This document shows, piece after piece, positions 26,640 through 44,245 of a stretch of DNA of 44,245 nucleotides. Made by a program: the position numbers and the translations under genes. Source of the stretch: Chloroflexota bacterium (lineage in GTDB: Bacteria > Chloroflexota > Dehalococcoidia > Bin125); NCBI GenBank assembly GCA_009838915.1, contig VXQT01000014.1, positions 1 to 44,245 of the forward strand, given 5' to 3'. The stretch's first letter is position 1; each line of letters opens with the position of its first letter. The notes below the pieces were generated by a model. That model had not been told where the DNA came from and did not search any database. It saw only the letters and a list, made by a program, of their open reading frames with translations.

Positions 26640-28427
26640 ATGAGCACCGCAGACGCAGCGAGCGCACGGCTAGCCGACAGTGAACAGGAGGCGAGGCCGG
26701 CCGGCTCTCAGGTGGGACGTCTGATTGCGCCGTTGAGACGGACGATGGTCGTCGCCTGTCTGTTGCAAGCGATCAGCTCGGTGTTCGGCATCATGCCCTT
26801 CATCGCCGTCGCAGAGATCGGCCGCGTGCTGCTGGCGGAGGGTGCGACCGACGAGCGCAAAGCCTGGCTAATCGCCGGGCTCGGCGCAGGCGCAATGCTG
26901 CTTCAGTTCATCTTCAAGATGGCCTCGGGCGCGATCACCCATTTGGCCGACGTCGACTTCCAGTTCTACCTTCGACGCAACATGGCCGCTCAGCTCAGCA
27001 CGGTGCCCCTGGGATGGTTCAACGACCGCAATGCCGGCGCGGTCAAGAAGGCGCTCGAGGACGACGTTTCGACCCTCCACCACATCGTGGGTCATTCCTA
27101 CACCAACATGGTCGGCGCGGTGGTGACGCCCGTCACCGCGCTGATCTACCTGTTCATCATCGACTGGCGGATGGCGCTCGCTGCGCTGATCCCGATTGTC
27201 GGCGGCGTCTTTCTCTACGCCTTCATGTATCGCGGCTTCAGTGAGAAGATGGTCGCCTACGACGAGGCGCTCGAGGACGTCAATGCTTCGTCGGTCGCCT
27301 TCGTCCAGGGCATCGCCGTGGTCAAGACGTTCGGCCAGGCCCGGCGCTCGTATCGTCAGTTCGTTGACCACGCAAACGGATTCGTCGACTACTTCTGGGA
27401 GTGGGTCAAGGGTCAGATTCCCTGGATCTCGGCCGGCAACACGGTGATGTCGCCGATCTTCGCCATGGTCGTCATCGTGGCGATCGGCCTGGGCATGACC
27501 GCCAGCGGCGCAATTGAAGCGATCGACCTGCTGCCCTTCATCATCCTCGGACCGAGCCTGGCCGCCGCCTTTCTGACGCTGTCCTTCGCCCAGAACGACC
27601 TGATGCTCGCCCATCGCGCCGCCGACCGGGTCGCCGACGTGCTCGATACGCCTTCGCTGCCCGAGGCAGAGCATCCACGCAAGCCGGTCGGTTCCCGTGT
27701 CACGTTCGAGAACGTCGGCTTCTCATACGACGGCGAAAACGAGGCGGTCCGCGGCATCGACCTCACCCTTGAACCCGGAACCGTCACCGCGCTCGTCGGC
27801 CCTTCCGGATCTGGCAAGAGCACGCTGGCCCGGTTGCTGCCACGATTCTGGGACACAACCGAAGGCCGCATCACGATCGGTGGCGTGCCGGTCGACGAGA
27901 TCAGCAGCGACGACCTCTACCGCCATGTCGGTCTGGTCTTCCAGGACGTGCAGTTGCTGCGCATGTCGATTCGCGACAACATCGCGCTGTCGCGGCCCGA
28001 TGCGCCGCTGGAAGAGGTCGTGGCGGCGGCCAAGACGGCGCAGATTCACGAGCGAATCCTCGAGCTGCCGCGCGGCTACGACTCCATCGCCGGCGAGGAT
28101 GCGCTGCTCTCCGGCGGCGAGGCGCAGCGGGTCTCCATCGCCCGCGCCGTCCTCGCCGACGCGCCAATCCTCGTGCTCGACGAGGCGACCGCCTTCGCCG
28201 ATCCAGAGGCCGAGGCATCGATCCAGGACGCAATCTCCGAACTAGTCGTCGGGCGCACGCTGCTGGTAATCGCGCACCGACTGCACACGATCGTCGGCGC
28301 CGACCAGATCTGCGTGCTGGACCGCGGGCAGATCATCGAACAGGGCACGCATGACCAGTTGCTGGCGCTCGAAGGAACGTACCGCCGTCTCTGGGAAGCG
28401 AGCCGGGTCGCGGAGGTAGTCGGATGA
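26640..28427 (+). CDS. ABC exporter-fold half-transporter, IrtA/YbtP-like
   Basis: A 595-residue protein with an N-terminal six-helix ABC exporter domain (about 30-320) and a C-terminal nucleotide-binding domain: Walker A GPSGSGKST, signature LLSGGEAQRVSIARA, Walker B ILVLDEATAFAD. Sequence around PLGWFNDRNAGAVKKALEDD resembles the half-transporters IrtA/IrtB and YbtP/YbtQ, which share the exporter fold yet import ferric siderophores. After the Walker B Asp-Glu the D-loop is FAD rather than LD. It has GAGGAG before the ATG and overlaps its partner by ATGA. Direction of transport and ligand are inferred from family resemblance only. Confidence 0.88.
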   Translation: MSTADAASARLADSEQEARPAGSQVGRLIAPLRRTMVVACLLQAISSVFGIMPFIAVAEIGRVLLAEGATDERKAWLIAGLGAGAMLLQFIFKMASGAITHLADVDFQFYLRRNMAAQLSTVPLGWFNDRNAGAVKKALEDDVSTLHHIVGHSYTNMVGAVVTPVTALIYLFIIDWRMALAALIPIVGGVFLYAFMYRGFSEKMVAYDEALEDVNASSVAFVQGIAVVKTFGQARRSYRQFVDHANGFVDYFWEWVKGQIPWISAGNTVMSPIFAMVVIVAIGLGMTASGAIEAIDLLPFIILGPSLAAAFLTLSFAQNDLMLAHRAADRVADVLDTPSLPEAEHPRKPVGSRVTFENVGFSYDGENEAVRGIDLTLEPGTVTALVGPSGSGKSTLARLLPRFWDTTEGRITIGGVPVDEISSDDLYRHVGLVFQDVQLLRMSIRDNIALSRPDAPLEEVVAAAKTAQIHERILELPRGYDSIAGEDALLSGGEAQRVSIARAVLADAPILVLDEATAFADPEAEASIQDAISELVVGRTLLVIAHRLHTIVGADQICVLDRGQIIEQGTHDQLLALEGTYRRLWEASRVAEVVG

Positions 28428-30193
28428 TCTTCAAACTGCTGCAACTTCTGCCCGCGTCCCTGCCGCACGGACGCACTCTGCGGGCAAACATCTTCGGCCT
28501 CGCGCTCGAAGGAATCCTGATGGGGGTCGGCTTCGCGTTGCTCGTGCCGTTGCTGCGCGCTACGTTCGACGGCGCATACGACACCGCCTGGGTCTGGCTC
28601 GGCGCGATGACCGGCGTGCTCGCCGCCTACGGCATCGTGCGCTGGGTCACCCAGATGCTCGGGTTCATCTCCGCCATCAACCTGGCCCGCAGCCTGTTCG
28701 AGCGCCTGGGCGACAAGATCGCGCAGCTTCCGCTGGGCTGGTTCGACGTCACGCGCGTCGGCAGCCTGGGACGGCTGACCAGCCAGGGCGTGATCGATGT
28801 GATGGGCGTCCCTGCCCACCTGTTGCGCCCGGTCGTCAACGCGTTTGTCACTCCAGTCACCGTGATCATCGTGATGTTCGCCTTCGACTGGCGGCTCGCC
28901 CTCGCCGCGGCGATCACGGCGCCGTTGGCCCTATTGGTCTATCGCTGGTCGACCGGACTCGTGGCTCGGACCGATCACCGTCACGACGACGCCAAGGTCG
29001 ACGCGTCCAATCGCGTGGTCGAGTTCTCGCAGGCGCAAGCCGTGCTGCGCGGGTTTGGCTACGCGACGCGCAGCTTCAAGCAGCTCGACGACGCCCTGCA
29101 AGAGCAACGCGACGCCGGCCGCGGCCAGCTGATGATCGCCGCGCCCGGACTCGCCGGATTCGTGCTCGTCGTGCAGATGGCGTTCACCGTCTTGATCCTG
29201 TTCGGACTCAACCTCGCGCTGGGCGGCGACATCGAAGTCGCCGAACTTCTGGCCATCCTCGTGCTCGCCGCCCGCTACGTCGATCCGATGATCGAAGCGG
29301 CCGACCTCGGCGGCGCGCTCAGGATCAGCCGCAACAGCCTGGACCGCATGGAAACGTTGTTCGCCACCGATCCGTTGCCGGAGGCCAACTCGTCGACCGA
29401 GCCGGCTGGCGCAGCCATCGAGTTCGACTCGGTCCGCTTCACCTACGAGGAACACACGGTCCTCGACGACATCAGCTTCACCGCGCCCGAGCGCACGATG
29501 ACCGCTGTCGTCGGCCCCTCCGGCGCCGGCAAGACCACGATCCTTCGCTTGATTGCACGCTTCTGGGATGCCGGAGCGGGCTCAGTACGGGTTGGCGGCG
29601 TCGACGTCCGCGACCTCTCGACCGAAGTCCTGATGCGGCAGATCTCCGTCGTCTTCCAGGACGTCTATCTGTTCGACGGCACGATCGAGGAGAACATCCG
29701 CCTCGGTCGGCCCGACGCGACCGACGCGGAGGTTCGGGCGGCAGCGTCGCTCGCGCGTGTCGACGAGATTGCCGAACGCCTGCCGGAGGGCTGGGAGGCG
29801 CGAGTCGGCGAGGGCGGCGCGCGGCTCTCCGGCGGCGAGCGCCAGCGCGTCTCCATCGCCCGGGCGATCCTCAAGAACTCGCCGATCGTGCTGCTCGACG
29901 AGGCCACCGCCGCGCTCGACCCGATCAACGAACGCGCCGTACAGCAGGCCCTGCAAGCCCTGACCCACGACAAGACCCTGGTCGTGGTCGCCCACCGTCT
30001 GCAGACCGTCCAGGCCGCCGACCAGATCCTCGTGCTCGACGAGGGACGGATCGTCGAGCGCGGCTCGCACGCGGATCTGCTGGAGTTGGACGGTCGCTAC
30101 GCCGCGTTCTGGCAAGAACGCCTCCGCGCCGCCGGCTGGCGAGTCACCGCCGACCAGCAACGACCCACCGCCGACAGAGTCCCGGCGGACTAA
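28424..30193 (+). CDS. ABC exporter-fold half-transporter, IrtB/YbtQ-like
   Basis: The 589-residue partner of the previous gene, with a membrane domain and an ATPase domain carrying Walker A GPSGAGKTT, signature LSGGERQRVSIARA and Walker B IVLLDEATAALD. The domain proper ends near FWQERLRAAGWR; the last 20 or so residues are polar and unconserved in appearance. The ATGA overlap implies an obligate heterodimer. It is the last gene of the plus-strand cluster. After its stop, the +1 frame stays open with coding-like GC-rich third positions up to a TAG at 30282 (reading TKPTGFTSYQKAIKRIRAG), so a frameshift in the tail is possible. Confidence 0.88.
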   Translation: MIFKLLQLLPASLPHGRTLRANIFGLALEGILMGVGFALLVPLLRATFDGAYDTAWVWLGAMTGVLAAYGIVRWVTQMLGFISAINLARSLFERLGDKIAQLPLGWFDVTRVGSLGRLTSQGVIDVMGVPAHLLRPVVNAFVTPVTVIIVMFAFDWRLALAAAITAPLALLVYRWSTGLVARTDHRHDDAKVDASNRVVEFSQAQAVLRGFGYATRSFKQLDDALQEQRDAGRGQLMIAAPGLAGFVLVVQMAFTVLILFGLNLALGGDIEVAELLAILVLAARYVDPMIEAADLGGALRISRNSLDRMETLFATDPLPEANSSTEPAGAAIEFDSVRFTYEEHTVLDDISFTAPERTMTAVVGPSGAGKTTILRLIARFWDAGAGSVRVGGVDVRDLSTEVLMRQISVVFQDVYLFDGTIEENIRLGRPDATDAEVRAAASLARVDEIAERLPEGWEARVGEGGARLSGGERQRVSIARAILKNSPIVLLDEATAALDPINERAVQQALQALTHDKTLVVVAHRLQTVQAADQILVLDEGRIVERGSHADLLELDGRYAAFWQERLRAAGWRVTADQQRPTADRVPAD

Positions 30194-31314
30194 GCCGGCC
30201 AAGGCCACCAAACCGACGGGCTTCACGTCGTACCAGAAGGCGATCAAGCGGATCCGTGCCGGCATCACTGCTCCGATTGCTTAGCTGACACTGCCGGCTC
30301 GGTCGTCGAGCACACTTACAGCGCCACCTCCCACATGAACGTTCGCAGTACAGTCCCTCTTGGCCTACCACCCATGACAAAATCGAGAACCTTCTCGTTG
30401 ACGTTCCTACTGAGCGCAGATTGCCCCGCTCCGAGCGTCCGAGCGCGCCCCGGACGACGAGGGTGAAGCACTTGCGGCGCGGGACCCATCGGCGGAATAC
30501 TGCGGCAACTCCCATGGCTGCGATGTGCGGTCAGACGCTGCCGCGAGGCTCGACCCTCGGCGGATCTATATCCGAATCCGCTACCAACTGTGGACGACTC
30601 GTGTAGACAGCAGCGCACTGGCAGTGAACCGCTCCAGATGAGCCGGCGGTCCGAGCAAGACGAACAACCCTAACGACCGCAAGGACGCAGGTATCTGCCG
30701 GCTAGGCCTCGCTCGCAAGGCTCCCTCGCCCCAGCTTCTCGGTGGCGGTGGGTCGCCACTGCCATCCTTTGTGTGAGAAGTAGCTTTGTAGGCGATACGG
30801 GGTGCAAAGCCCATAGGTGCTCCAGCGAGTGAGTTCGAGTCCGCTTGCCCGGGCTAGCGCTCGTCCCCAGTGCGGAGCGTGTCAGAGGTGATCGAATGGA
30901 CCGAGCTCAGCATGTCCTCGGAGCGGAAGTAGCGCGAGGCGCGCACTGGTGGGTCGAGCCGCAGTAGTTCCTAGCCGAGAGCGCGGGCCTGTGTGCCGGC
31001 AGGCAGCCGCCAGCCGTGAGATCGGACGCCGCTCGACGGCCTTCACGCGTCGCGCATGAACACTACCCAACAACACTGTCTAGGCACTCCGGCGCGTGGG
31101 CTATCCCTCCGCCGGAAAGGAGACGCACTATCCGTCAATCGAGTCAATGGTTCGTCGTCCACCACGTAGCTCTGCGCGATGCGAGAGTTTGGGCCTTCAG
31201 GGAGTGGGCTGTGCCCGTAATCAGCTACACCCTCATCGGCCCCAACTGTCGGCGTGCGCCAACTACTTCGAGCCGCTGAGTTAGGATTGTCCTCCCTACC
31301 CGAAACAAGAGCGA
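30194..31314. other. About 1.1 kb without a recognisable gene, at the border of the accessory region
   Basis: After a coding-like +1-frame tail to 30284, no frame on either strand gives a recognisable protein, and short open stretches have mixed, non-coding-like composition. No tRNA, transposase remnant, terminal inverted repeat or CRISPR is seen. The stretch marks the change from GC-rich, tightly packed genes to the lower-GC island. Degraded genes, an unrecognised RNA, or the regulatory region of the 1238-residue gene are possible contents. Confidence 0.6.
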
Positions 31315-34300
31315 GTGTTTTCTTCCGCCACCCTGGACCTCTCGCCTGCGGCTGCTCCTCTCAAGCAGTTTGACCTGCTCGACTTGAGTCAACGAGCAGG
31401 CGCCCTTCAACTGATGCCTGAAAACGGAGCCAACACCTTTCGGCTCGAGTTGGCGTGCAGCGCCCTGTTGACCCTTGTCGATGGGCCAGGACGAGACCAG
31501 ATCAGCGATTCACGGTGGCGGGCATGGTTGCGAAGCGGGCCGCTCGGGGACTCACGCATCCGGCTCTTGGAGGACCCTCCCAGTAATCCCTTTACCGAGA
31601 CCATCGCCTTCCACGGCGGTTCGTACACCGTGTTGCCGGGGACTGCTGAGCACGCGGTTTCTCACCTCCGAATCTTGCTGCAGTCCATTTACTTGGGCGA
31701 CTCAGGAGAATCACGGCTGTCTGACCAGTTCGTGGGCTCTGTCCGCGCCCTCACGCTCGCAATTCTCTCGCTTAGCCACAAATGCGCTCTCACAGCCGAA
31801 CTTGCGCGCGGTGAAGTCGGGGAGACTGTTCCATCGGAGGAAATGGTCCAACCAGGCAGCGATCGGCTTACGAGGCTCCGTGAAGCGGTGACGTTTCCTC
31901 TGGCGGAGCTCGAAGCACTCCTTTCGCGCGCGGGAGCCAATGTGGAAGACCTTGCGCCTCTAGTAGTAGACGCCGGCTCAAACCCACCCTCGACTGTCAA
32001 CACAGCGGACCTTCCCGTCTACTATCGCCCCATTCTGCGAGTCGAGGACAGCTTCGTGCTCTTGGCGCCAAGTTCACTGGTCGCGGCGCTGACGCATGCC
32101 ATCCTGAGCATGGCTCACGAGTCTGGCGACTTGCCTGTGCTTGCGGAGAGACTCCGCGGAACTTGGTTCGAGAGCGCCGATCGGGCACTCGAACTGCTTG
32201 GTTGCGATCTGGCCAGCGGACCGCAATCCTCCGAGGACCCGACACTCCCGGCAGTCCGAGCGCTGTATCACATTGACACCGACAAGGTGCTGGCACTGAT
32301 CCTGTTGACAGACCCTTTCGACTCTTTCGACCCGGCGTCAATCAATGGCGAGTGGTCTTCTGTGGATCTCAGCGAACGTGCTTGGGCGGAGATACTCAGG
32401 ATCGAAGAGATGTTGGCGGCGTTGACAACGCCGCCGAACGGCCTGCTTGCCTTGGTTGCAGTCGAGTCTCTCGGGCGAAGGTTCGCCGTCGGCCTGTCAG
32501 ACTTCCGGTACGCGAAGCCACTGCCTCTGTCTGTCAACGATCTTGAGGTGATTGCACACACCGAGGGCGGGAATCCGCTCCTGTTGTGGCAGTACGTAAA
32601 TGCCAGCGACCGAATGCGTGACGACGCCGCAGTGTTTTGTTCCGACCCCCTGGATGAGTTTGCGTTTTGGAGATCTAACGGTTTCACCTACTACGCGTCA
32701 GACGAAGCAAATCCGATCAGCGTTCTGATTGCTCCGGGCACGGCCACTGAACTGCGAAGCGAGGCGCGTGATGCTCTCGATCTGCACGCTCTGCCAGCGC
32801 CGACAGGCCCCGGCGTGGTGGAGGTCACACGACGGTTTCCCAATCAAGACATCCCAATCTACGTTCCGCGCGCCGAGGCGGTCCCGGTCCTCTCAATGGC
32901 GGTCGATGGTCTCCCACTAACGCTGTGGATCCAAGCTGCCCGAAGTCTGGAGGACCGACGCTTCGGGGGGCTGGTGCTGAGCCTCGTTGATTTCGTGGCC
33001 CATTGGATCTGGCAGTTTGAGGAGCACCTAGAGGAAACTCTCGAACGGCTAGCTACGCGCTTTGCCCGCCTGGTGATTCGAGTCGATCTCGTGGAATCAG
33101 ACGCCTGGTTTGGCGAAGGGCCGTCATCGGGGGAACCGCTGGCAGTCAAGCTCGACGAAAGTGGCTCACTAACCGTCACGTTCTTGGAGGGTGCAGCGGC
33201 GCATTTTGAGGGCAGCGACAACGCCGGCGAACGCGAGATTGTGCGCGCCATGTTGGAGTTGCTTCACGACTTCGGTCGAGATATCGCTATGGCGAACGGC
33301 CGTGTCTCTGACGAAGGGATCACTCAGGCACTCGAGAGCATCGCACCGCTCGGCCTCAAGAAGAAAGTCCTCTTCCTGGAGGGCGAGGCTGCCACCTATC
33401 TGGACGAGAGTGAGCTTCTCCCTTATCGGCCACTTCAACCGACAGCGACCGAAGAGTGGCGAGACAGCGAGCACGAACTGCTCGATCCTTTGGATTTGTC
33501 GCCGGGAGTGATTCCTAGCGATAGGCGTGTTGCGACACTCAATCAATTGGTCGCAAAGGGATACCAACGGTTCGAGCAGCTCATCGCTGCCCTGAGTCCA
33601 CGCGGACTGATGGAGAATCTCGTTGCAAACGGCGAGCGACTCATCTGGTTGGAGGAGCATCAACGTCGGCTGACGCCGACGCGGCTCGCCTGCTACAGCA
33701 CCGTCCCAAAGATGGTCGAGGAGTTGAAGCAAGACGGCTCGACCTTGGCGGCCACCGCAATCGCACACAGATTCGTGACCGAGTACGTAGCGGCTCAACC
33801 TCCAAATGGCATCCGGCCCTTCAGCCTCCAAGCCTACGATGAACTCATTGCCTTGGCTGTGCTCATAGTTCATTGGGGAAGGCAAAGCGATGCCCTTCAC
33901 TACGGCCTCGCCGATACCGAGCTCTCGGTGTTGGAATCTGGTCGACTTGGCAGTTTGGAGCCCGCATTTGTAGAGGCGCTCGACGACTACAGCGAACGTG
34001 CGTACACCGAGCAGATTGCACGGTCGTCATCGGCTTTCGCGTCAATGGTTCGAGACCCATCCGAACCTGTCCGCCAACCGCTGATTTCCATCGAGGAACT
34101 GGACCGGGCCACCGGAGCCGAATTTGGGCTCAGCACCACGGAGGTTGCCAGATTCATCCAGACGCTCATCGACATCGGGTCGGAACAGCGTGGGCCAGCC
34201 AAGCATTTGGCCGAGGCAGAAGTCCGTGAGCGCCTGTCCGTTGAGTTGGGTTGGACGCGAGACCAGATGGACACCGCATTTCGCCTTCTCAGCCTCGGTC

Positions 34301-35031
34301 CACGCGAGGCATATCTGCAGCCTCCGCCTGGATTCGAGCAACGCGATCTTTATCCGTGGGCCTTCAGTCGGCGCATGTCGCATCTCAGCCGCCCAATTCT
34401 GTTGAAGGAGGGAAACGATGGCTCGCGTGAAGCGTTGTGGGGCGCGAGGGCCTTGACTCGGACCAACGAGTACCTGTTCAGGCAGATTGTCGAGGGCAGG
34501 CTCGTAGCGACGAGCGACGAATTGCGCTCGCTCCAGGGACGTACTGCCAATCTCCTCGGTGAGATGTTCAATGACCGAGTCGCAGACCTGTACGAAACCG
34601 CCGAGGGATTAATTGTGCGTCGACGCGTTCGGCGCATTGGAGGCCGACGAATCCAACGAAAGCCCGGAGAGCCCCTAGGGGACATCGACGTACTGGTTGC
34701 CGACAGGCTGTCCAGAAGCCTCTCGTTGGTGGAAACAAAGAACTTCTCCACCGCAAGGACTCCCGCAGAGTTTGCAAGCGAAGAGAGGAAGCTGCGTGAG
34801 ACGCTGAAAATTCACTGTGAGCGTTGCGAATGGGTCGAAGAGAATCTCGGCGTCACCCTAGAAGGGCTCGGGATCAGCAATGGCGACGTGAAGGCCTGGC
34901 GGGTAGAACAGCTCGTGGTCGTGAGCAGTGAGGCTTTCACTCCCGGACTTCGCGATTTTCCGGTGCCGATAAAGAGTTTGTCGACGCTGAGGACCGAGGT
35001 TGGTGGAGCAGTTCACAACATGCGCCCATAG
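31315..35031 (+). CDS. Large protein of unknown function with C-terminal PD-(D/E)xK nuclease domain
   Basis: A 1238-residue protein I cannot assign to a named family. The first 1050 residues are mostly helical with beta segments and show no P-loop, helicase or transmembrane motifs. The C-terminal 180 residues carry a restriction-endonuclease-like core: a helix LQGRTANLLGEMFNDRV, strands after RRRVRRIGGRRIQ, then GDIDVLV with Asp1125, and LSLVETKNF with Glu1140 and Lys1142, spaced as in PD-(D/E)xK enzymes. This part probably cuts or binds nucleic acid. The start is GTG at 31315 with a weak purine stretch; ATG at 31414 is an alternative. Base composition is clearly lower in GC than the core genes. 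It faces an Avs2-like gene, so an anti-phage role is plausible but unproven. Confidence 0.7.
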   Translation: MFSSATLDLSPAAAPLKQFDLLDLSQRAGALQLMPENGANTFRLELACSALLTLVDGPGRDQISDSRWRAWLRSGPLGDSRIRLLEDPPSNPFTETIAFHGGSYTVLPGTAEHAVSHLRILLQSIYLGDSGESRLSDQFVGSVRALTLAILSLSHKCALTAELARGEVGETVPSEEMVQPGSDRLTRLREAVTFPLAELEALLSRAGANVEDLAPLVVDAGSNPPSTVNTADLPVYYRPILRVEDSFVLLAPSSLVAALTHAILSMAHESGDLPVLAERLRGTWFESADRALELLGCDLASGPQSSEDPTLPAVRALYHIDTDKVLALILLTDPFDSFDPASINGEWSSVDLSERAWAEILRIEEMLAALTTPPNGLLALVAVESLGRRFAVGLSDFRYAKPLPLSVNDLEVIAHTEGGNPLLLWQYVNASDRMRDDAAVFCSDPLDEFAFWRSNGFTYYASDEANPISVLIAPGTATELRSEARDALDLHALPAPTGPGVVEVTRRFPNQDIPIYVPRAEAVPVLSMAVDGLPLTLWIQAARSLEDRRFGGLVLSLVDFVAHWIWQFEEHLEETLERLATRFARLVIRVDLVESDAWFGEGPSSGEPLAVKLDESGSLTVTFLEGAAAHFEGSDNAGEREIVRAMLELLHDFGRDIAMANGRVSDEGITQALESIAPLGLKKKVLFLEGEAATYLDESELLPYRPLQPTATEEWRDSEHELLDPLDLSPGVIPSDRRVATLNQLVAKGYQRFEQLIAALSPRGLMENLVANGERLIWLEEHQRRLTPTRLACYSTVPKMVEELKQDGSTLAATAIAHRFVTEYVAAQPPNGIRPFSLQAYDELIALAVLIVHWGRQSDALHYGLADTELSVLESGRLGSLEPAFVEALDDYSERAYTEQIARSSSAFASMVRDPSEPVRQPLISIEELDRATGAEFGLSTTEVARFIQTLIDIGSEQRGPAKHLAEAEVRERLSVELGWTRDQMDTAFRLLSLGPREAYLQPPPGFEQRDLYPWAFSRRMSHLSRPILLKEGNDGSREALWGARALTRTNEYLFRQIVEGRLVATSDELRSLQGRTANLLGEMFNDRVADLYETAEGLIVRRRVRRIGGRRIQRKPGEPLGDIDVLVADRLSRSLSLVETKNFSTARTPAEFASEERKLRETLKIHCERCEWVEENLGVTLEGLGISNGDVKAWRVEQLVVVSSEAFTPGLRDFPVPIKSLSTLRTEVGGAVHNMRP

Positions 35032-35187: not shown

Positions 35188-38100
35188 TCAGTGGAGTTTG
35201 GTCCGCAGGCTCACTTCAACAGAGGAGTCTGCGTCCTCTAGCCCACCGACGCCGCTGATAGAGAGGATGGAATGCTCTCTTGGATTTTCAGCGCGGACGT
35301 TCCTGCCACCGAGCGCGGCCCAAACCAGAGAGAGGTCATGTCGGTCCAGGAACTCCCGCATCCCGCGCTCGCGAACGAGTAAGGCGCTTGGCCCAAGCTC
35401 AGAGCTAGAGGGGTCGCAGGCCAGTATGTCCTGATTGGGGTCAGTGAATGATGTCACTGGCGGGTGCCATCTGAGACCCGCCTGCGCCATCAACCAACTG
35501 CTAGGAAATGCCCTCGCAACAGTGCCTTCAAAGGCGCCGTCTCTCTCCCAGATGTACTCGGCCCATGTTGGCACGACGGGAGCCGGAGCAGTGCCGTTCT
35601 GGTCGTCTCTGGCTTCGACAACGATCGGGGAGGCGAGGGTCCCGGCCACCGCCGGATGCCACGGCCACTCCCCGTGGTAGACACCGAGGAGCGTAGGACC
35701 CTCTGGCATCCAGCGGCCGTTCCAATCTTGCTCCCGAGCCCACGTCAGAAACTCGATATAGGAAGCGCTTGGGACGAGGTAGCTACGAATCTGCAGCCAC
35801 TGGTCCCCCCTATCACTCAAGCTGGCCGCAGTCTGAGTGGAGGGTGATTCGGCCCAGCTGTACATACCGAAGAGGGTGAGCCACTTGCAGTCGTCCGAAT
35901 CCCACACGCTCAGCAGAGACTCAAGATCGGCAACACCAAAGGGATTTCGATCTCCTTGCAGCCACTGTGTCCGCTTGTCGTCATCGTCAAATGGCCCAAT
36001 CTCGCCTGTTGGTGGTCGCCACCAGGTGTGTCTCGCTGGGTCGTCTCCTTGACCGGAGGGTTCTATCAGCAGTGACGGATCGATATCCCGCAAGGAGATT
36101 TGCCATGGTCCGTCAAAGTGATCCGAGTCATCGTCGTACATCGGCCTGTATCTGCAATGGTCGGCGATCTTGCCTGCTAGTTCGTGGAGAGCGATCCACT
36201 GGTACTTCTTGCCAATCCGCTCCGTACGCCCAACCGGAGCGTACCTGTCGTAGGTTGCAACGCGGTCGTCGTACTCGCCAAAGCGTTTCGAGGTCCACCC
36301 GAGCTCCCGAACCCTACGGAGGATCCATCGTGAGGCTTCGTCGCTGTGCCACATGACCGGTCGGCTCGGTACCGGGTCCGTCCGGACACTCGTCGGTCCC
36401 CCGAGCTTCGCCAGCATCTCGTCGATTTTCGGAATGCCAGTGCTCCTGCCTTGGGCTGTGTTGGCTCTGGTCCTAACGCTCTCTCGGCGTTCGCGGAGCC
36501 TGCGACGCTGATTTGGGGCGACGAACTGTCGGACGGCAGGCGCGACTTCATACCTGTTGAAGTCACCCATTTCTCCCAACGAAAACCACAGAGGCCTGTG
36601 AGTTTCTCGTGGCGCACGGGCCTCCAAAGTCTCCTGCGAGGGAATCCGCACGGGCCATGCGCTGTTGTATGGAGGCCGGAACAACTTAGGGTCAAGGTTC
36701 GGCAAAGATGCACCGCGATGTATCGCACACTCGATGACACCGCGCGCGTAGTCCCGTAACATCACATGCTGGTGGGGCGCTCCGCTAGAGAAGACCTGGC
36801 TGTACACGCGCTGGGCGAGACCTGACAGTTCACGCACATCGGAACATCCGAGGGCACAGCCGTAGGCCACCGCGAAGAGCCGCTCCGAGACGTAGGGATC
36901 GTCGACCTCACGGAAATGATGGAGCAAGAGGATCAAGACCGGAATCCGCTGCCGGAGGAGCGACACAAGAGCCTTCGTCGCTTGGTCTCTGAGACCGCGA
37001 TTGGAAGCCGCCAAACACCAAGTGAGTGTCAGTGAGGCGAGCCAGACGACCTGGATTGAGGCCGTCTCGTGCTGAGGAGAGAGGCTCCAAGTGATGATCC
37101 TGTAGATCGCGCTGCTGCGAGCCTCGCAGCTATTGATATGAATCGTCCAATAGGCGTCTCTATCCGGGAGTTTCATATGACGCAGCTGTTCATCGAGTGT
37201 GCTGGCATTGAACGGGTGATCCTGATGGAACGCCAGTTGCAGCTTGGACTCAAGCACTTGATCGTGGAAGTCACCCGCGCTGCCGGAAATCGACTTCAGG
37301 TAACTGGACAGAGCATCGCCGGCACAGTCCTGAGGCCTTCGCCACGGGAGACTACTCAGCACCGCGCCCTGGATACCCAGAGTCTGCGGGTTGTCAACAA
37401 GCTCGAACAGCTCGCGCGAGCGACTCTCTGGAAGCTGAACCGCGAGCGCCTCTAGGAGGCCCGATGACTGCCGGAAGAACCAGGGCTTGTTGACCAAATC
37501 GACGACTCGCGATTCGAGATCGTTGTCATCCAAGTTGTCGAGCAACCACGCCGCCTGCAAGTGGTCTCCGAGTCGCTGGTAACTCAGCCGAACCACTTCT
37601 CCTTCCTTGCCGAGATCTGTGACAATCACCGACTCGTCAATGAGTCCCCTGGCCAAAGAGCTACTCCATTGACGGTTCGGCAGCAGTTCCTCGCAGAGTT
37701 CCTCGAACTCGCCTATTGGTACAAAGTCGACGTTCTCTCTGATCATCGCCTGTGCGATTCGATGCACAGCCTTCTCGACTAGATTCTTGTCCTCTCGGAA
37801 GTCGCAACGGGTCCGGTCTGCTAGCAAGCCGTTGACCGCCGAGATGTAACCGCTGAATAGATCCGAAACACCCGTGGAGCCTGGTGGTAGCGTCTTCTCA
37901 CCGCGAAGACTTAGGGTTTTACACAGGAGTTTGAGGAACAACGGATTGGAGTACTCCGGCAACAGGAGCGGAAAGTCTGGAATCTCGATTCTCCAATGAC
38001 TAAAGAATATGGATGCAGCTTCGAACTCCAGGCCTGCAAACCCGACGTGTTTGCTCTCTGTGAACCCAAAGTCCTCGGGGCTGGAACCGCCCGCGTTTCG

Positions 38101-39540
38101 CGGCAGCACTTCGCTGACGTAACTCGACCGGCAAGACACAGCAACAGCCAGATGCGAATACTCACTCACCTCGGCAGCGAGGCCTCCGAGGAAACTGCGT
38201 ATCTTCTGTCGGCTCGGAACGTCATTGACCGCGTCCAGCAGAAGTAGTGCCCTGCAACCTGCGACTCTGCCTGCCATATCCAATGTGGCCAGAAACTCGG
38301 GCATTGTCATCCCTGCAAGGTCAAGCTGTCCGAAGATTGCATTCCGGGGATTGCCATCGTCGAGTTCCTCGCCGAGTAGCAACACAGTGGGGCGGCCCTC
38401 CGCTAGTCGACGAGCAGCTACGTCGCAAAGAAGGTGGGTCTTGCCGGTTCCCCAATCTCCTGTCAAGAACAAGGCGGGGCGAGATGCCAGCCTGGCCGTA
38501 CGCGAATTGATGAACTCCTCCATCTGGTACACGGCCATGTAGATTTGGTGGGCCTTCCGGCGCAGCTCAGCAATGACATCAGGCGTCCCGCTAGCCTTCG
38601 ACCCCTGCGAAGGTTCATCTCGGTCATTGTCGTCATTCTCATTGTCGTAGAGCTTCTCCAACACTCGGTCCAGCAACTGTCGAAGGTCGGAGAGCTTCGC
38701 CATGAAGGGCTCCCAGTTCGGCGCAGCGCCGCCGAGAGTCTCAGCCCCTTTCCAGGTAGCGAGGTAGTCGGCAGCCGCTGCGGCCAGAGACTCTACATCT
38801 GACTGAGTGTCTGTTTCCAGCTCGGGCTCCTCAACCGAGCTCGGCCAGCGCAGGCTAGCTCTAGCGAAGTCCTCGACGAGCTTTGCGAGCTCCTCTTCGA
38901 AACGATCCGTCAAGCCCAATCCGTCGAAGGCAAATCGAATAGGCACGTCGACGTTAACTTCTTCGGTGTAGCGTGGACCCGCCTTGTTCCTTGCTTGTTC
39001 GTAGCGCCTCTGCAGCCACTCCTGACTGAACAAGATTCGCTTGTCGAACCAATAGAACACATGCCCAACATGTTCCTCTCGAAGCAAAGCGTCAATGAGC
39101 TGAGATTCGCCAGCGAATCGGAACTCGATCGTGCGTCCCTCGCTTGCGGCCAGCGATGTCCATGTCTCGAAGGCCCTTTCAAGCTTCCTCTTTGCGCTCT
39201 CTCCGTGCTGACCCGCCGGCGGATTCATCGGCAACACAAACGTGTATCGAGTCAGGCTGGGGCAGCTCGCAAGCGCGGTCTCAAACGACTCTCTCATTTG
39301 CTGCAGTTCAGCATTGTCAATCCTGAAAAAGTACTTCGCTTGCCAACCCCAGATCGCCCCGTCCTCCAACTCGATGTACGCCTCGATTCCGCTATCCGGA
39401 CTGCCGTGCCGACTCACCTTCCTGCCTCTGGCATCTTCATCCAACCACGGAATGAGTTCGACTACGAGTTCCTCAAAGCCTCGTTGGACGGAGCCTTCGT
39501 GCTCCCGGATTGAGCGAAAGTCGATGGTCGGCAGCGTCAT
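35188..39540 (-). CDS. Avs2-like STAND NTPase with N-terminal nuclease domain (putative anti-phage sensor)
   Basis: About 1450 residues in three parts. Residues 1-180 form a Cap4/DUF4297-like PD-(D/E)xK nuclease: GFEEL with Glu23/24, GSPDSGIEAY with Asp49 and Glu53, and GWQAKYF with Lys69. Residues 340-680 form a STAND-type NTPase with Walker A GDWGTGKT (361-368), Walker B ALLLLDAVND (Asp436) and sensor-like VAVSCRSSY (Arg471). The rest is a long helical and beta C-terminal region expected to recognise a phage protein. In known Avs2 proteins, binding of the terminase large subunit triggers tetramerisation and DNA cutting. The match is by motif order and spacing, not a search. ATG at 39540 is chosen because the nuclease domain starts there (MTLPTIDFRSI); no strong ribosome site is seen. 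Confidence 0.8.
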   Translation of the reverse strand: MTLPTIDFRSIREHEGSVQRGFEELVVELIPWLDEDARGRKVSRHGSPDSGIEAYIELEDGAIWGWQAKYFFRIDNAELQQMRESFETALASCPSLTRYTFVLPMNPPAGQHGESAKRKLERAFETWTSLAASEGRTIEFRFAGESQLIDALLREEHVGHVFYWFDKRILFSQEWLQRRYEQARNKAGPRYTEEVNVDVPIRFAFDGLGLTDRFEEELAKLVEDFARASLRWPSSVEEPELETDTQSDVESLAAAAADYLATWKGAETLGGAAPNWEPFMAKLSDLRQLLDRVLEKLYDNENDDNDRDEPSQGSKASGTPDVIAELRRKAHQIYMAVYQMEEFINSRTARLASRPALFLTGDWGTGKTHLLCDVAARRLAEGRPTVLLLGEELDDGNPRNAIFGQLDLAGMTMPEFLATLDMAGRVAGCRALLLLDAVNDVPSRQKIRSFLGGLAAEVSEYSHLAVAVSCRSSYVSEVLPRNAGGSSPEDFGFTESKHVGFAGLEFEAASIFFSHWRIEIPDFPLLLPEYSNPLFLKLLCKTLSLRGEKTLPPGSTGVSDLFSGYISAVNGLLADRTRCDFREDKNLVEKAVHRIAQAMIRENVDFVPIGEFEELCEELLPNRQWSSSLARGLIDESVIVTDLGKEGEVVRLSYQRLGDHLQAAWLLDNLDDNDLESRVVDLVNKPWFFRQSSGLLEALAVQLPESRSRELFELVDNPQTLGIQGAVLSSLPWRRPQDCAGDALSSYLKSISGSAGDFHDQVLESKLQLAFHQDHPFNASTLDEQLRHMKLPDRDAYWTIHINSCEARSSAIYRIITWSLSPQHETASIQVVWLASLTLTWCLAASNRGLRDQATKALVSLLRQRIPVLILLLHHFREVDDPYVSERLFAVAYGCALGCSDVRELSGLAQRVYSQVFSSGAPHQHVMLRDYARGVIECAIHRGASLPNLDPKLFRPPYNSAWPVRIPSQETLEARAPRETHRPLWFSLGEMGDFNRYEVAPAVRQFVAPNQRRRLRERRESVRTRANTAQGRSTGIPKIDEMLAKLGGPTSVRTDPVPSRPVMWHSDEASRWILRRVRELGWTSKRFGEYDDRVATYDRYAPVGRTERIGKKYQWIALHELAGKIADHCRYRPMYDDDSDHFDGPWQISLRDIDPSLLIEPSGQGDDPARHTWWRPPTGEIGPFDDDDKRTQWLQGDRNPFGVADLESLLSVWDSDDCKWLTLFGMYSWAESPSTQTAASLSDRGDQWLQIRSYLVPSASYIEFLTWAREQDWNGRWMPEGPTLLGVYHGEWPWHPAVAGTLASPIVVEARDDQNGTAPAPVVPTWAEYIWERDGAFEGTVARAFPSSWLMAQAGLRWHPPVTSFTDPNQDILACDPSSSELGPSALLVRERGMREFLDRHDLSLVWAALGGRNVRAENPREHSILSISGVGGLEDADSSVEVSLRTKLH

Positions 39541-39916
39541 GACGCAAATCTTACTGGGCGGATGCGACACAGAAAGTGAGAGCGCAAGATTCTGTGCCCT
39601 GGCGGAGGCCAAGGTCTGAGGTCGTAGGCCACTCGACATCGACAGGGCATGGAGGTGATTGACAACGAAGTTTGCACTCCGAAATCGCAGGGTTCGGGAC
39701 CATGCGCAACGCACTCCAAGCTGTGCACTTCGGTGTGCGCCCAATCGCGGTGAGCACGCTGATTGCCTGACGAGCAACCAGGCAGATGGCGTTCACTGGG
39801 CGCCGTCTCTGGACAGGCGCTGCGCACTGAGCCGTTGCTGACCGCCAACATCTCCTGCGTCGCAGCAGTCGTTTAGGGGGCTGCTCACGTTTCAGCCGAA
39901 ACAGGGCGAGCCTGCT
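39541..39916. other. Upstream region of the Avs2-like gene
   Basis: These 376 bp separate the Avs2-like start from the stop of the membrane protein on the same strand. The frame of the Avs2-like gene stays open for 79 codons upstream but lacks domain-like sequence. Two small hairpins are visible: GCCTG/CAGGC around 39760-39780, and GTTTC-AGCC-GAAAC near 39889, the latter just after the membrane-protein stop and possibly part of a terminator. No RNA gene was recognised. Confidence 0.5.
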
Positions 39917-41719
39917 CTATTCGGCGCCACCCGATTCCAGCCAATGCACAATCTGTTGGCGCGCTTCGTCCGCGACTTCGCCCTCCAAGTCGTCGACGCG
40001 CAGCAGCGAACTCTCTAGTCCACGCCACAGGATCTTCATCCGCTCTGACACGACAAGGTCGCCAATCGGAAGCTCTCGGATCTTGTCGCCAACTCCAGGC
40101 TGCATGGCAAGCCACAGATATCCGACGAGCACATATCCTCCGCCGCCGAAGAGATTTGCTGATGCTCCGTCGCTCCTGTCTCTCCGTTCGTCAGTCCAAG
40201 TTCCCCAGGTTTGCGAGAAGCCAGGGGGATGATCAATCAACAAGACGGTCGCAGCGAGCTCCACTGTGACCGATGCAAGGCCATGTCCGCCAGCCGATTG
40301 AGTGCGGATTCGGTCCAGCACCTGTCCTTGATTGAGTTCGATCGCGCGTCCAACCAACGCAACGATGCTGAGCAACGCTGCTTCCTGCACCGAGTACTTG
40401 CCCTCGTTCTGTGTCGAGAACTCGTGAAACTCGCTTCCGCTCAACTGCTGGTGTGGGACCGCGTAGCTCACCAGATCAGCGACCCATTTCGAAGCCTCGG
40501 CACCATCGTCGCTGCTCAACAGAAGGCCGCCATAGCGGTGCATTGCGCCAATCAGACTGATCGAGGCAACTCGCCTCATCTGCTGATTCAGTGGATAGCT
40601 TGTGTGGTACCGCACCTGCCTCGCGGAATAGAGCATGAGTGAGGTGGCCCTTCCGGCTACTTGACTCATGCCCTCCCTAGTTGTTTCTGACTCCGCCAAC
40701 TTGTATTCGCGAGTGAGGCTCGCCAATGCCGCATCCAAGGCGTCATCGTTGCCCCATCCAACCGCGTACCGCACCCACGTCTGCCTCAGATAGTGGAGAC
40801 GTTGAGAGTGGTCTGACAGGCGCTCGCGAAGACACAGCCGGTCCAATCGCTCTAGGCCGAACACAAGCTCTGTGCCTGTTGGCCATGGCATTGGAAACGC
40901 CGAGGCCGTGGCCTGATCGAGTTCGCCGAAGTCAAGCCGACCGTCAGCGATTCCGACCTTCAGGGCTTCCTCAAGCGTCACCATGCTGTCGGCGAAGTCT
41001 GTGAAACGCGCACTTCGGATCGCCATCTCGGCGTCGTCAATGATTCGACCTACTGCGCGGGCTGCCACCTGCGACAGCTCGACCTCTGCAGTTCCGTCAA
41101 TAGACTTCCCATCAGCGAATGCGCGACCGAGGCGAGCATAGGCCCGAGCTGCCGACCCGATGGCGTCGACCGTGACGTCTCTCTTGTAGGAGCGGTATCG
41201 GTTCGGACGAAGAACGCGCAGTCCCCACAGGGCGAATCCGATAATCACGAGCACGCCAGCGGTCATCGAGCCGCCCGCGAAGAGAATGATGTTTGGCGTC
41301 GCGCACTCGCCGCAAGTCCGAGCAAGGAAGTACGCAACCCCGGTCCCAAGGGTCAATGCCGCGGTGAGAGTGAAGACAGGCCGGACAAACGCCCTTCTCA
41401 AGAACCACTCGTACAGCGGGTCTTCTAACTCCTCGCGTCGCTGAACGCTCCCGACAATGAATGCAACCACTGCAAGCGAGATTGCCATCATCGCCGCCTG
41501 CGCCTGCAGAACCGTCTCGACAATGGCCCTTGTGGTTGTGGGGCTCTCTGGCAATACATCCAGGTCGCCGAGCGCCATTGTCAGTGTCAAGCCGCCTGCG
41601 ACCAAGAAGACTGCTATGACGAGTGAGGGAAGGGTTCCCGTCCAGAACGCCAACGAGGCAACTCTCCTCAGCTGGACTTTCGACTCGGACCGATTGGACA
41701 TCGCGTTCTCGACGAGCAC
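39917..41719 (-). CDS. Four-helix membrane protein with large cytoplasmic domain, unknown function
   Basis: A 600-residue protein. Four hydrophobic helices lie in the first 170 residues (about 28-50, 66-92, 112-133 and 143-168), the second containing [20 protein letters not shown]. Roughly 430 mostly helical residues follow without a recognised enzymatic motif; this part ends with segments such as [19 protein letters not shown]. The layout loosely recalls DUF2254-type membrane proteins, but I do not claim membership. It lies upstream of the Avs2-like gene on the same strand with a 376-bp gap. Some defence systems use membrane effectors, so it could be one; it could equally be unrelated cargo. 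The start may be GTG at 41719 or ATG at 41701. Confidence 0.65.
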
Positions 41720-41800: not shown

Positions 41801-41942
41801 CTGGGGCTAGCCCTCGCGCTTCGAATAGGCAAACCCGAACGCGAGGCTGCGATGGATTCGGATCTCGGTGACGCATCGCGCAAGGGGCGCCCCTACGCTC
41901 GCTGAGCGACCGGTTGGACCTGTAGAAGGGAAGAGGTTGGCG

Positions 41943-43463
41943 ATGGCGTTGAAGCGTTCTCGCACGTCGGGGAAGCGTCCGCGCGTCGCGGAGATCGGCT
42001 TGAGTGAATCCCAGCTGGCCGAGATCCGCCCGCACTGCGGAGACCTCAGGCCGGCCCAATCCGTAAGCGCATATCTCTCCCGTTTCAGCTGGACGGAGAC
42101 GGATATCGTCGTCGCCGGCGGCCTCAACCAGACCGAGATTGACGCCGGCGTCAACGTGCTAACCATTGGCCCGATGTCGCTTGGGCTCAGGCAGCGGAAA
42201 GGCAAGCACCCCGCGGAGCCGTTCCGAGAGCGCGTGAGGATGGACATGCAGAATCGGGAGCGAGGGGTGGGGGTCGTGTTCGGATGCCCGCCGATGTACA
42301 GCGGTCCGGCGGAGCTGCTGGCCAAACAGCTGCGCGCGTTGGATGAGCCGCCGCCGACCGTCACCGTGACCGATGCGGGCGAACGGCTGCGACAACCCAT
42401 CGTCGAGACCTCAGGCGGCTGCCCGGTCGCGTTGCGGCTGCATTGGGCGGGCCGTGTCTGGGGCGGCTCGCAAGCGGGTCCGACCGTTGATGTCGTGGCC
42501 CTGCACCTGCCGAGCCAAGCGGGCCTCTTGCCCTGGTTCAGAGCCTTCTTGACTGACATCGGCGAGTTCGATCCTGAGCGCGTGCCCGCGCCGCCATCCC
42601 TACTCAGCGAACCATCCCACTGGTACACGCCCAAGCAGGACCAACTCGCGAGGGAGATCGATGAGGTCGAGCGCGAACGAGGACGCTTGGAGAGTCAACA
42701 ACAACGCCTCGAAGAGGAGCTAGCAAGCGAGGGGCGACGGGCCGACGAGACCGTTCTGCGCACGATCTGTGAGGACGGCGATGAGCTGGTCGACGCGGTC
42801 GGCGAGATGCTGGAGGAGATCGGCTTCGCAGTCCAGCGGATGGACGACGCGAAGCCGCCGCACGAGGCGAAACACGAAGACCTCCGGCTGCGGCTCGCGA
42901 GCCGACTTGATTGGGAAGCCATCGTCGAGGTCAAGGGATACACCAAGGGCATCAGAGCCAAGGACGCCCAACAGGTCCGGATGCACAGGGAGCGCTACAA
43001 CCGAGATACAGGACGAGAACCGAGCCTGACGATCTGGCTGGTCAACCCGTGGCGCGAGATGGAGCCCTCAGACCGCCCCAGTCCCGACAAGCAGATTGAC
43101 GAGAGCGCCGAGATTGTCGGTGCCGTCTGCCTGCACACGACGGACCTCTACCTCCTGTGGAAGTCGCTCAAGACCGGCGACAGCTCCCTGGACGAGATTG
43201 TGCGGCGGTTGGTCGAGGCCGAGGCTGGACTGTGGCGGCCGTCCTTGAATCCCCGAAGCTCCGCTGCCATTCCGCCAGCGTCGTCTTTTCGATCATTCAT
43301 CGTTACGAAAATCCTCCTGCCTTCCAGACCACGATCGAGACATGTGCACTTCGTCCAAATTACACAGCAATTCGACGGTCGCCGCGTTACGCTGGAGTCC
43401 GGGAGGGAGCCTGTGATCGGCGCGGGCCTTGAGCCCCGGCGCAGTAGCGCACCGGTCCTGTGA
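41943..43463 (+). CDS. Coiled-coil protein with predicted PD-(D/E)xK nuclease domain
   Basis: A 506-residue protein of unrecognised family. Residues 1-230 form an unknown domain with a VFGCPP motif. A charged coiled coil (about 232-268, REIDEVERERGRLESQQQRL) connects to a domain with GFAVQRMDD, HEDLRLRLA, and AIVEVKGYTKG, in which Glu312/Asp313 with Glu329-x-Lys331 fit a PD-(D/E)xK active site; the strand SLTIWLVNPW follows. From about residue 437 the sequence loses coding character and overlaps a long inverted repeat, so the last 70 residues may be read-through after a lost stop. GGGAAGAGG precedes the ATG. It may be a nuclease effector or restriction-like enzyme; no methylase is near. Confidence 0.65.
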   Translation: MALKRSRTSGKRPRVAEIGLSESQLAEIRPHCGDLRPAQSVSAYLSRFSWTETDIVVAGGLNQTEIDAGVNVLTIGPMSLGLRQRKGKHPAEPFRERVRMDMQNRERGVGVVFGCPPMYSGPAELLAKQLRALDEPPPTVTVTDAGERLRQPIVETSGGCPVALRLHWAGRVWGGSQAGPTVDVVALHLPSQAGLLPWFRAFLTDIGEFDPERVPAPPSLLSEPSHWYTPKQDQLAREIDEVERERGRLESQQQRLEEELASEGRRADETVLRTICEDGDELVDAVGEMLEEIGFAVQRMDDAKPPHEAKHEDLRLRLASRLDWEAIVEVKGYTKGIRAKDAQQVRMHRERYNRDTGREPSLTIWLVNPWREMEPSDRPSPDKQIDESAEIVGAVCLHTTDLYLLWKSLKTGDSSLDEIVRRLVEAEAGLWRPSLNPRSSAAIPPASSFRSFIVTKILLPSRPRSRHVHFVQITQQFDGRRVTLESGREPVIGAGLEPRRSSAPVL

Positions 43464-43488
43464 GGGCCCTGAGCCCCGCTCCCTCCCG
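43400..43488. repeat. Perfect 11-bp inverted repeat enclosing a short direct repeat
   Basis: CGGGAGGGAGC at 43400-43410 is exactly complementary to GCTCCCTCCCG at 43478-43488. Inside lie two near-copies of GGGCCTTGAGCCCCG (the second GGGCCCTGAGCCCCG). The element covers the 3' end of the coiled-coil nuclease frame and the gap to the convergent edge gene. It may be a bidirectional terminator or a small palindromic mobile element. Confidence 0.7.
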
Positions 43489-43503
43489 CAACTCATCTAG
43501 CCG

Positions 43504-44245
43504 TCAGTGCTCACCCGTTCCTCCCCACCGCCCCAACGTGAGACCACGCAGCAGCCAGTGCAGGCACCAAGTCAGCGGAAGCTGCCAGCGCAGCCGTCTC
43601 AGCGCCCGTCGCCGCCAGTCCAGTTCACGTTCGCGCCTTCGCTCGCCCCAGGGCGCATCGGCCGGGGGCGGGGTCAGTCCGAACACGCCGATCAGCCGAA
43701 GCTCCAGCTCCAATCGCCGCCCCTCCCCCCGCAGCCAATCCAGGGTGTAACGCGCCTGCTTGCGGTCCGCCCAGGCCTCGCGCCACTGGACGACCTCCTC
43801 GGCCGCCGCCCCGTAGACCTGCTCCTCGCCCGGTTCGGGGTGTTCGGTAACCAGCTCGGGGAAGACGCGGCGTGGCACCGGCACAGACCGCTGTTGCTCC
43901 ACCGCGTGTCCGGCATCCACCTCGTGCGCATCGTCCACATCGCCCTCACCGCCACCGTCATCGGGCCCCCGTGAGACGCGGCCCTCAACCGCCTCCACTC
44001 GCTCGCGCAGCGACGCCAGTTCGACCCCGAGCTTGTCCACAGCTCGCCGCCACTCCTCCGCAGGTTCCTGTAGGAGGGCCTCCTCCCCACCCCCCTGTTC
44101 GTCCGGCACAGGAGCAGTCGCCTGGTCCTCCAGCTCCTCCTGTTCAGTCTGTTCGCGCAGGTACTTCTCCAGCGCCTGGCGCATCCGCCGGCTGACGTGC
44201 CGCTCTTCGAGACACTTGGCCGCCGTGCGGTAGTTGACGCCCAGC
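43504..44245 (-). CDS. HTH-like/coiled-coil protein, N terminus beyond the window
   Basis: The frame is open through the right edge of the window. Its first visible residues, LGVNYRTAAKCLEERHVSR, then RRMRQALEKYL, look like the recognition part of a helix-turn-helix followed by a basic helix. A glutamate-rich region and a coiled coil (DKLGVELASLRERVEAVEGR) follow. After a low-complexity Gly/Asp linker comes an alpha-helical part with ERRRERELDWRRRALRRLRW and a hydrophobic end (LPLTWCLHWLLRGLTLG) that could touch the membrane. It may be a DNA-binding regulator. At least 246 residues lie within the window; the start is not visible. Confidence 0.6.
   Translation of the reverse strand, partial: LGVNYRTAAKCLEERHVSRRMRQALEKYLREQTEQEELEDQATAPVPDEQGGGEEALLQEPAEEWRRAVDKLGVELASLRERVEAVEGRVSRGPDDGGGEGDVDDAHEVDAGHAVEQQRSVPVPRRVFPELVTEHPEPGEEQVYGAAAEEVVQWREAWADRKQARYTLDWLRGEGRRLELELRLIGVFGLTPPPADAPWGERRRERELDWRRRALRRLRWQLPLTWCLHWLLRGLTLGRWGGTGEH

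Follow-up and report, generated by a model that had tools for sequence, protein, structure and literature searches.

An intact and rather divergent Avs2 (AVAST type 2) protein in an apparently acquired defence island of a Chloroflexota bacterium

The avs2 locus and its genomic setting

The window analysed here is the whole 44,245-nt stretch at positions 1 to 44,245 (forward strand) of contig VXQT01000014.1, from the Chloroflexota bacterium assembly GCA_009838915.1. On its minus strand lies avs2 (35188..39540), a gene encoding a protein of 1450 aa, whose reading frame runs from an ATG at 39540 to a stop codon at 35188-35190 with no internal stops. The frame could be extended upstream to a TTG at 39777, but because the Avs2 relatives begin either at this ATG or only a few residues away from it, the longer reading is unlikely and the ATG is the probable start. 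The motifs quoted for this protein by the initial annotation, which did not give the strand, all occur where it placed them. That annotation had also regarded the genome as one of the Chloroflexota, and the RpoB tree agrees: the query and eight Chloroflexota rows group together (support 100/99) against six other phyla.

Between about 31 and 41 kb of the window, GC content falls from about 0.65 to 0.58-0.60, and the low-GC segment (0.585 vs. 0.65) spans avs2 flanked by a Upx-like gene and by a gene whose product has hydrophobic segments at its N terminus. To the left of this island is an ABC transporter gene (28424-30193) that is present in four sibling genomes (G009, G003, G004 and G001), and the DNA matching these siblings ends at 30144-30201. 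In none of the four was the island segment found beside the transporter, in sibling stretches reaching roughly 16-18 kb past it in three genomes and under 5 kb in G003. The avs2 gene thus apparently resides in an acquired defence island, at a site that we infer to resemble an exchangeable defence site.

The Upx-like gene (31315..35031, plus strand) adjoins avs2 in convergent orientation, and its 1238-aa product carries a nuclease-like motif, ID...ETK, close to the C terminus (IDVLVADRLSRSLSLVETKNF). This product matches the Upx models of PADLOC (3.1e-39) and NCBIfam (7.9e-46) mainly through its C-terminal part, and since its 156 bits fall below the NCBIfam cut-off of 1900, it is a distant relative at best. 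This gene shares the island and is not part of Avs2; it was not found in any other genome of the genus. In G003 (L066, G003:C386, 801-4538), the position next to the ABC transporter is taken by a methyltransferase-like gene and a gene matching a PADLOC candidate family (PDC-S45) rather than by the Upx/Avs2 island.

On the other side of avs2, the 600-aa protein with hydrophobic N-terminal segments (39917-41719, minus strand) has no family match, and a second, 78% identical copy occurs in the same genome (G000:C11:94523-96316). The following gene (41868-43463, plus strand) encodes a 531-aa coiled-coil protein, also without a family match, with a possible PD-(D/E)XK motif (EDLRLRL...WEAIVEVKGY) near its C-terminal part. 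About 2.3 kb of the window (41971-44245) is 80% identical to L096:14757-17032 at the end of contig C11, and this repeated stretch, which ends both contigs, probably broke the assembly; copies related to the protein encoded at 43504-44184 occur in 14 of the genus's 15 genomes. A UvrD-type helicase with a weak C-terminal zinc-ribbon match is encoded close to the repeat on C11 (L096:9390-12305); it resembles GajB among others and is equally likely to be a generic helicase.

Family membership and domain architecture

The product of avs2 is matched, far beyond chance, by each of the six PADLOC Avs2 models (the best, PDLC02164, scores 1214 bits, its E-value printed as 0, across residues 4-1019 and a second stretch), and the protein had no match at E<=1 to the PADLOC models of Avs1, Avs3, Avs4 or Avs5. 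Each part of the protein is recognised by itself: the nuclease and linker (residues 1-345) at 8.6e-65, the NTPase region at 9.8e-103, and the last 750 residues at 3.9e-188, with all six Avs2 models matching the C-terminal region. The profile search across Avs1-Avs5 that the initial annotation had proposed therefore returns Avs2 over nuclease, NTPase and sensor alike, with the NTPase falling in Avs2 rather than outside the STAND/Avs clades.

Against the NCBIfam Avs2 equivalog model NF041813, the protein scores 982.4 bits (E 4.4e-295), less than 2% short of the curated cut-off of 1000, which is a threshold for naming in annotation rather than a biological property that defines Avs2. The automatic Avs2 name was missed because the protein is divergent, and we read the score as a mark of that divergence. 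A Pfam search yielded no domain that passed the thresholds. Among solved structures, the only relative recovered by single-sequence search is Avs2 itself (PDB 9o4e, E 1.4e-161), aligned in three stretches within residues 165-1415, and the profile built on residues 318-1450 aligned with it from end to end (1074 bits). Neither the single-sequence search nor an N-terminal profile aligned the first 164 residues to 9o4e, and the nuclease domains of the two proteins cannot be matched by sequence; their nuclease subtypes thus differ. Four of the six PADLOC Avs2 models include the query's N-terminal nuclease type, so this type already lies within the described family. The agreement with Avs2 (PDLC02164, NF041813, 9o4e) extends to the order of the domains and to the alignment of the NTPase, the repeats and the C-terminal sensor module, and the length of 1450 aa compares with about 1375-1576 for the PADLOC Avs2 models. 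The protein is, in short, an intact, rather divergent Avs2 (AVAST type 2), and the earlier description of it as an Avs2-like STAND nuclease is borne out by PADLOC, the NCBIfam E-value and 9o4e, although the bit score under the NCBIfam cut-off and the unaligned first 164 residues weigh against it.

The claimed three-part layout of nuclease motif, STAND NTPase and long C-terminal region also holds, with 760 residues (rather than about 770) after the NTPase/winged-helix part, which ends near residue 690. The N-terminal PD-(D/E)XK nuclease domain (residues 1-166; 39043..39540, minus strand, as are all features of the gene) matches PDLC02164 at 3.8e-39 on residues 1-170 alone. In an alignment of 20 full or nearly full sequences from many phyla, the residues D49, G51, E53, W64 and W66-Q-A-K69 of the nuclease are invariant, those of the motif GSPDSGIEAY...WGWQAKYF (residues 46-71; 39328..39405) including D49, E53, Q67, A68 and K69. 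The STAND NTPase and winged-helix region (residues 336-690; 37471..38535), supported by conservation, PADLOC match and fold match, holds a Walker A motif, GDWGTGKT (residues 361-368; 38437..38460), and a Walker B motif, LLLLDAVND (residues 432-440; 38221..38247), both evident from sequence and alignment, followed by SCRSSY (residues 469-474; 38119..38136). Invariant in the same 20 sequences are G361, G364, G366 and K367 of the P-loop, as well as D436, N439 and R471, the last of which is the probable sensor 1 arginine. Both Walker motifs are thus intact, and the catalytic residues of the nuclease are present. A helical-repeat region (residues 691-1000; 36541..37470), seen as helices in the structural model, is the best conserved between query and relatives. 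It precedes the C-terminal sensor module (residues 1067-1450; 35191..36342), supported by alignment and by the match of residues 1000-1450 alone to PDLC02164 (9.8e-90). The module carries the conserved motifs RIGKKYQW and RDIDP, the former (1108-1115) kept in all sequences long enough, with one position not counted as conserved.

Because the N-terminal profile found no nuclease among solved structures (besides 9o4e, only chance coiled-coil matches), placing this domain required a comparison of folds. In the AlphaFold2 model of residues 1-345 (mean pLDDT 83), the best solved match of the N-terminal domain is the Avs4 nuclease (8dgf, Z 13.2, 3.0 A over 144 residues), with further matches to LlaBIII, MspJI, AspBHI and FokI, and the domain is accordingly modelled as a PD-(D/E)XK restriction-endonuclease fold; the lack of a nuclease fold, which would have counted against the initial annotation, was looked for and not seen. 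The model of residues 318-1450 (mean pLDDT 74, with low confidence at residues ~975-1215) is closest to terminase-bound Avs3 (8dgc, Z 14.0), although this agreement is only piecewise because the rmsd is 40 A over the whole; the next matches are NLRP, NLRC4 and other STAND/NLR proteins. Comparison with the known Avs structures, as had been suggested, thus relates the nuclease to Avs4 and the STAND core to Avs3, neither of which has a sequence model that matches the query.

Divergence, relationships and distribution

The query shares about 30-35% identity with its relatives. An annotated Avs2 from a Rhodothermus marinus plasmid (WP_144295528.1) aligns over residues 1-1430 at 33.6% identity, and sits on a different, well-supported branch of the family tree. 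In that tree of 22 sequences, the query lies on a long branch (2.11) paired (98/95) with L027, from a host in another family of the same class, and the two fall outside the strongly supported group that holds the Rhodothermus protein. The pairing may be an artefact, since it joins two long branches. Two genomes of the query's genus (G007 and G008) carry Avs2 from the Rhodothermus group, so plain inheritance within the genus probably does not account for the copy in the window. The long branch, together with the score below the NF041813 cut-off, upholds the earlier view of the protein as a divergent member.

At least eight phyla contain relatives of this Avs2 (Chloroflexota, Planctomycetota, Bacillota, Acidobacteriota, Armatimonadota, Bacteroidota, Fidelibacterota and Pseudomonadota). 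Partial relatives were seen beyond these, and 75 plasmid records also carry relatives. Within the same class, only 5 of 393 genomes, the query's included, have a match below 1e-100; such a rare and patchy occurrence is as expected for defence genes. No relative was found on viral contigs, and phage records yielded weak, partial relatives in two cases only.

To locate the divergence within the protein, the query was compared with 14 relatives and the result set against the identity of those relatives to each other. Mean identities for query-relatives vs. among relatives were 35% vs. 54% in the nuclease, 34% vs. 46% in the NTPase, 39% vs. 48% in the helical-repeat region, and 31% vs. 41% in the C-terminal module. 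Expressed as a share of the relatives' mutual identity, the C-terminal part (0.75) stands beside the NTPase (0.73) and the nuclease (0.65). Set against these 14 relatives, the sensor shows no particular alteration, and by this measure it appears no more diverged than the other domains.

Sensing, activation and alternative readings

The initial annotation stated that Avs2 recognises the terminase. According to PMC12724215 and PMC12931631, Avs1-3 recognise the large terminase subunit and Avs4 the portal, but a Klebsiella Avs2 has a second trigger, Ksap1, so that the statement was too narrow. The same papers describe the nuclease activity of Avs1-4 as cutting phage and host DNA, leading to cell death; in Avs3, ligand binding leads to tetramerisation, which brings the nuclease domains together (PMC11291478). 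By homology, the C-terminal helical-repeat and sensor part of the query would bind a conserved protein that the phage makes during infection, either the large terminase subunit or a different trigger, as Ksap1 is for a studied relative. The ATP-bound STAND NTPase would then oligomerise and unite the N-terminal PD-(D/E)XK nuclease domains, which would cut DNA and stop phage growth at the probable cost of the host cell. Family membership, domain order, intact motifs and genomic setting are observed directly; binding, oligomerisation, cutting and the trigger are expected from homology.

A possible objection is that the fold matches point to Avs4 for the nuclease and to Avs3 for the NTPase, as if the protein were of type Avs1, 3, 4 or 5, or even a STAND protein with no relation to Avs. 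The solved Avs2 (9o4e) is, however, absent among the fold matches of both model parts; this is no argument against membership, and it means that the fold ranking cannot decide between Avs types. With six Avs2 models matched and those of the other types unmatched, such an assignment is extremely improbable. Nearly as hard to credit is a decayed, inactive copy: the long branch speaks for it, but the gene is full length, free of stops and frameshifts, and intact in its catalytic and P-loop residues.

The alternative with the most weight, though still an unlikely one, is that a protein of Avs2 architecture has switched its sensor to a phage protein other than the known Avs2 triggers, as the initial annotation had suggested might be so. 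Its position on a long branch outside the clade of the annotated Rhodothermus Avs2 is in keeping with this, as are the segment at residues 1001-1066, which aligns poorly and ranges from 20 to 157 residues in relatives, and the report of more than one trigger for other Avs2 proteins (PMC12931631). Yet the divergence of the sensor is proportional to that of the rest, its core residues are kept, and its C-terminal region matches every PADLOC Avs2 model. Because the sensor is not unusually changed, the idea of a different trigger lacks a specific basis, and nothing that we can read in the sequence favours a new one. That the query and G061/L027 form a deep, separate Avs2 lineage, in which the same chassis recognises some phage protein outside the present list of Avs2 triggers, is similarly doubtful.

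The protein is thus very probably an antiviral STAND protein of the Avs2 family (AVAST type 2), a single-gene system which by homology would proceed from sensing through oligomerisation to DNA cutting. Its architecture does not depart from that of known Avs2; it is divergent but otherwise ordinary. As an intact and divergent Avs2 from a phylum that has been little studied, it is useful for probing how far the recognition of triggers is conserved across the family.
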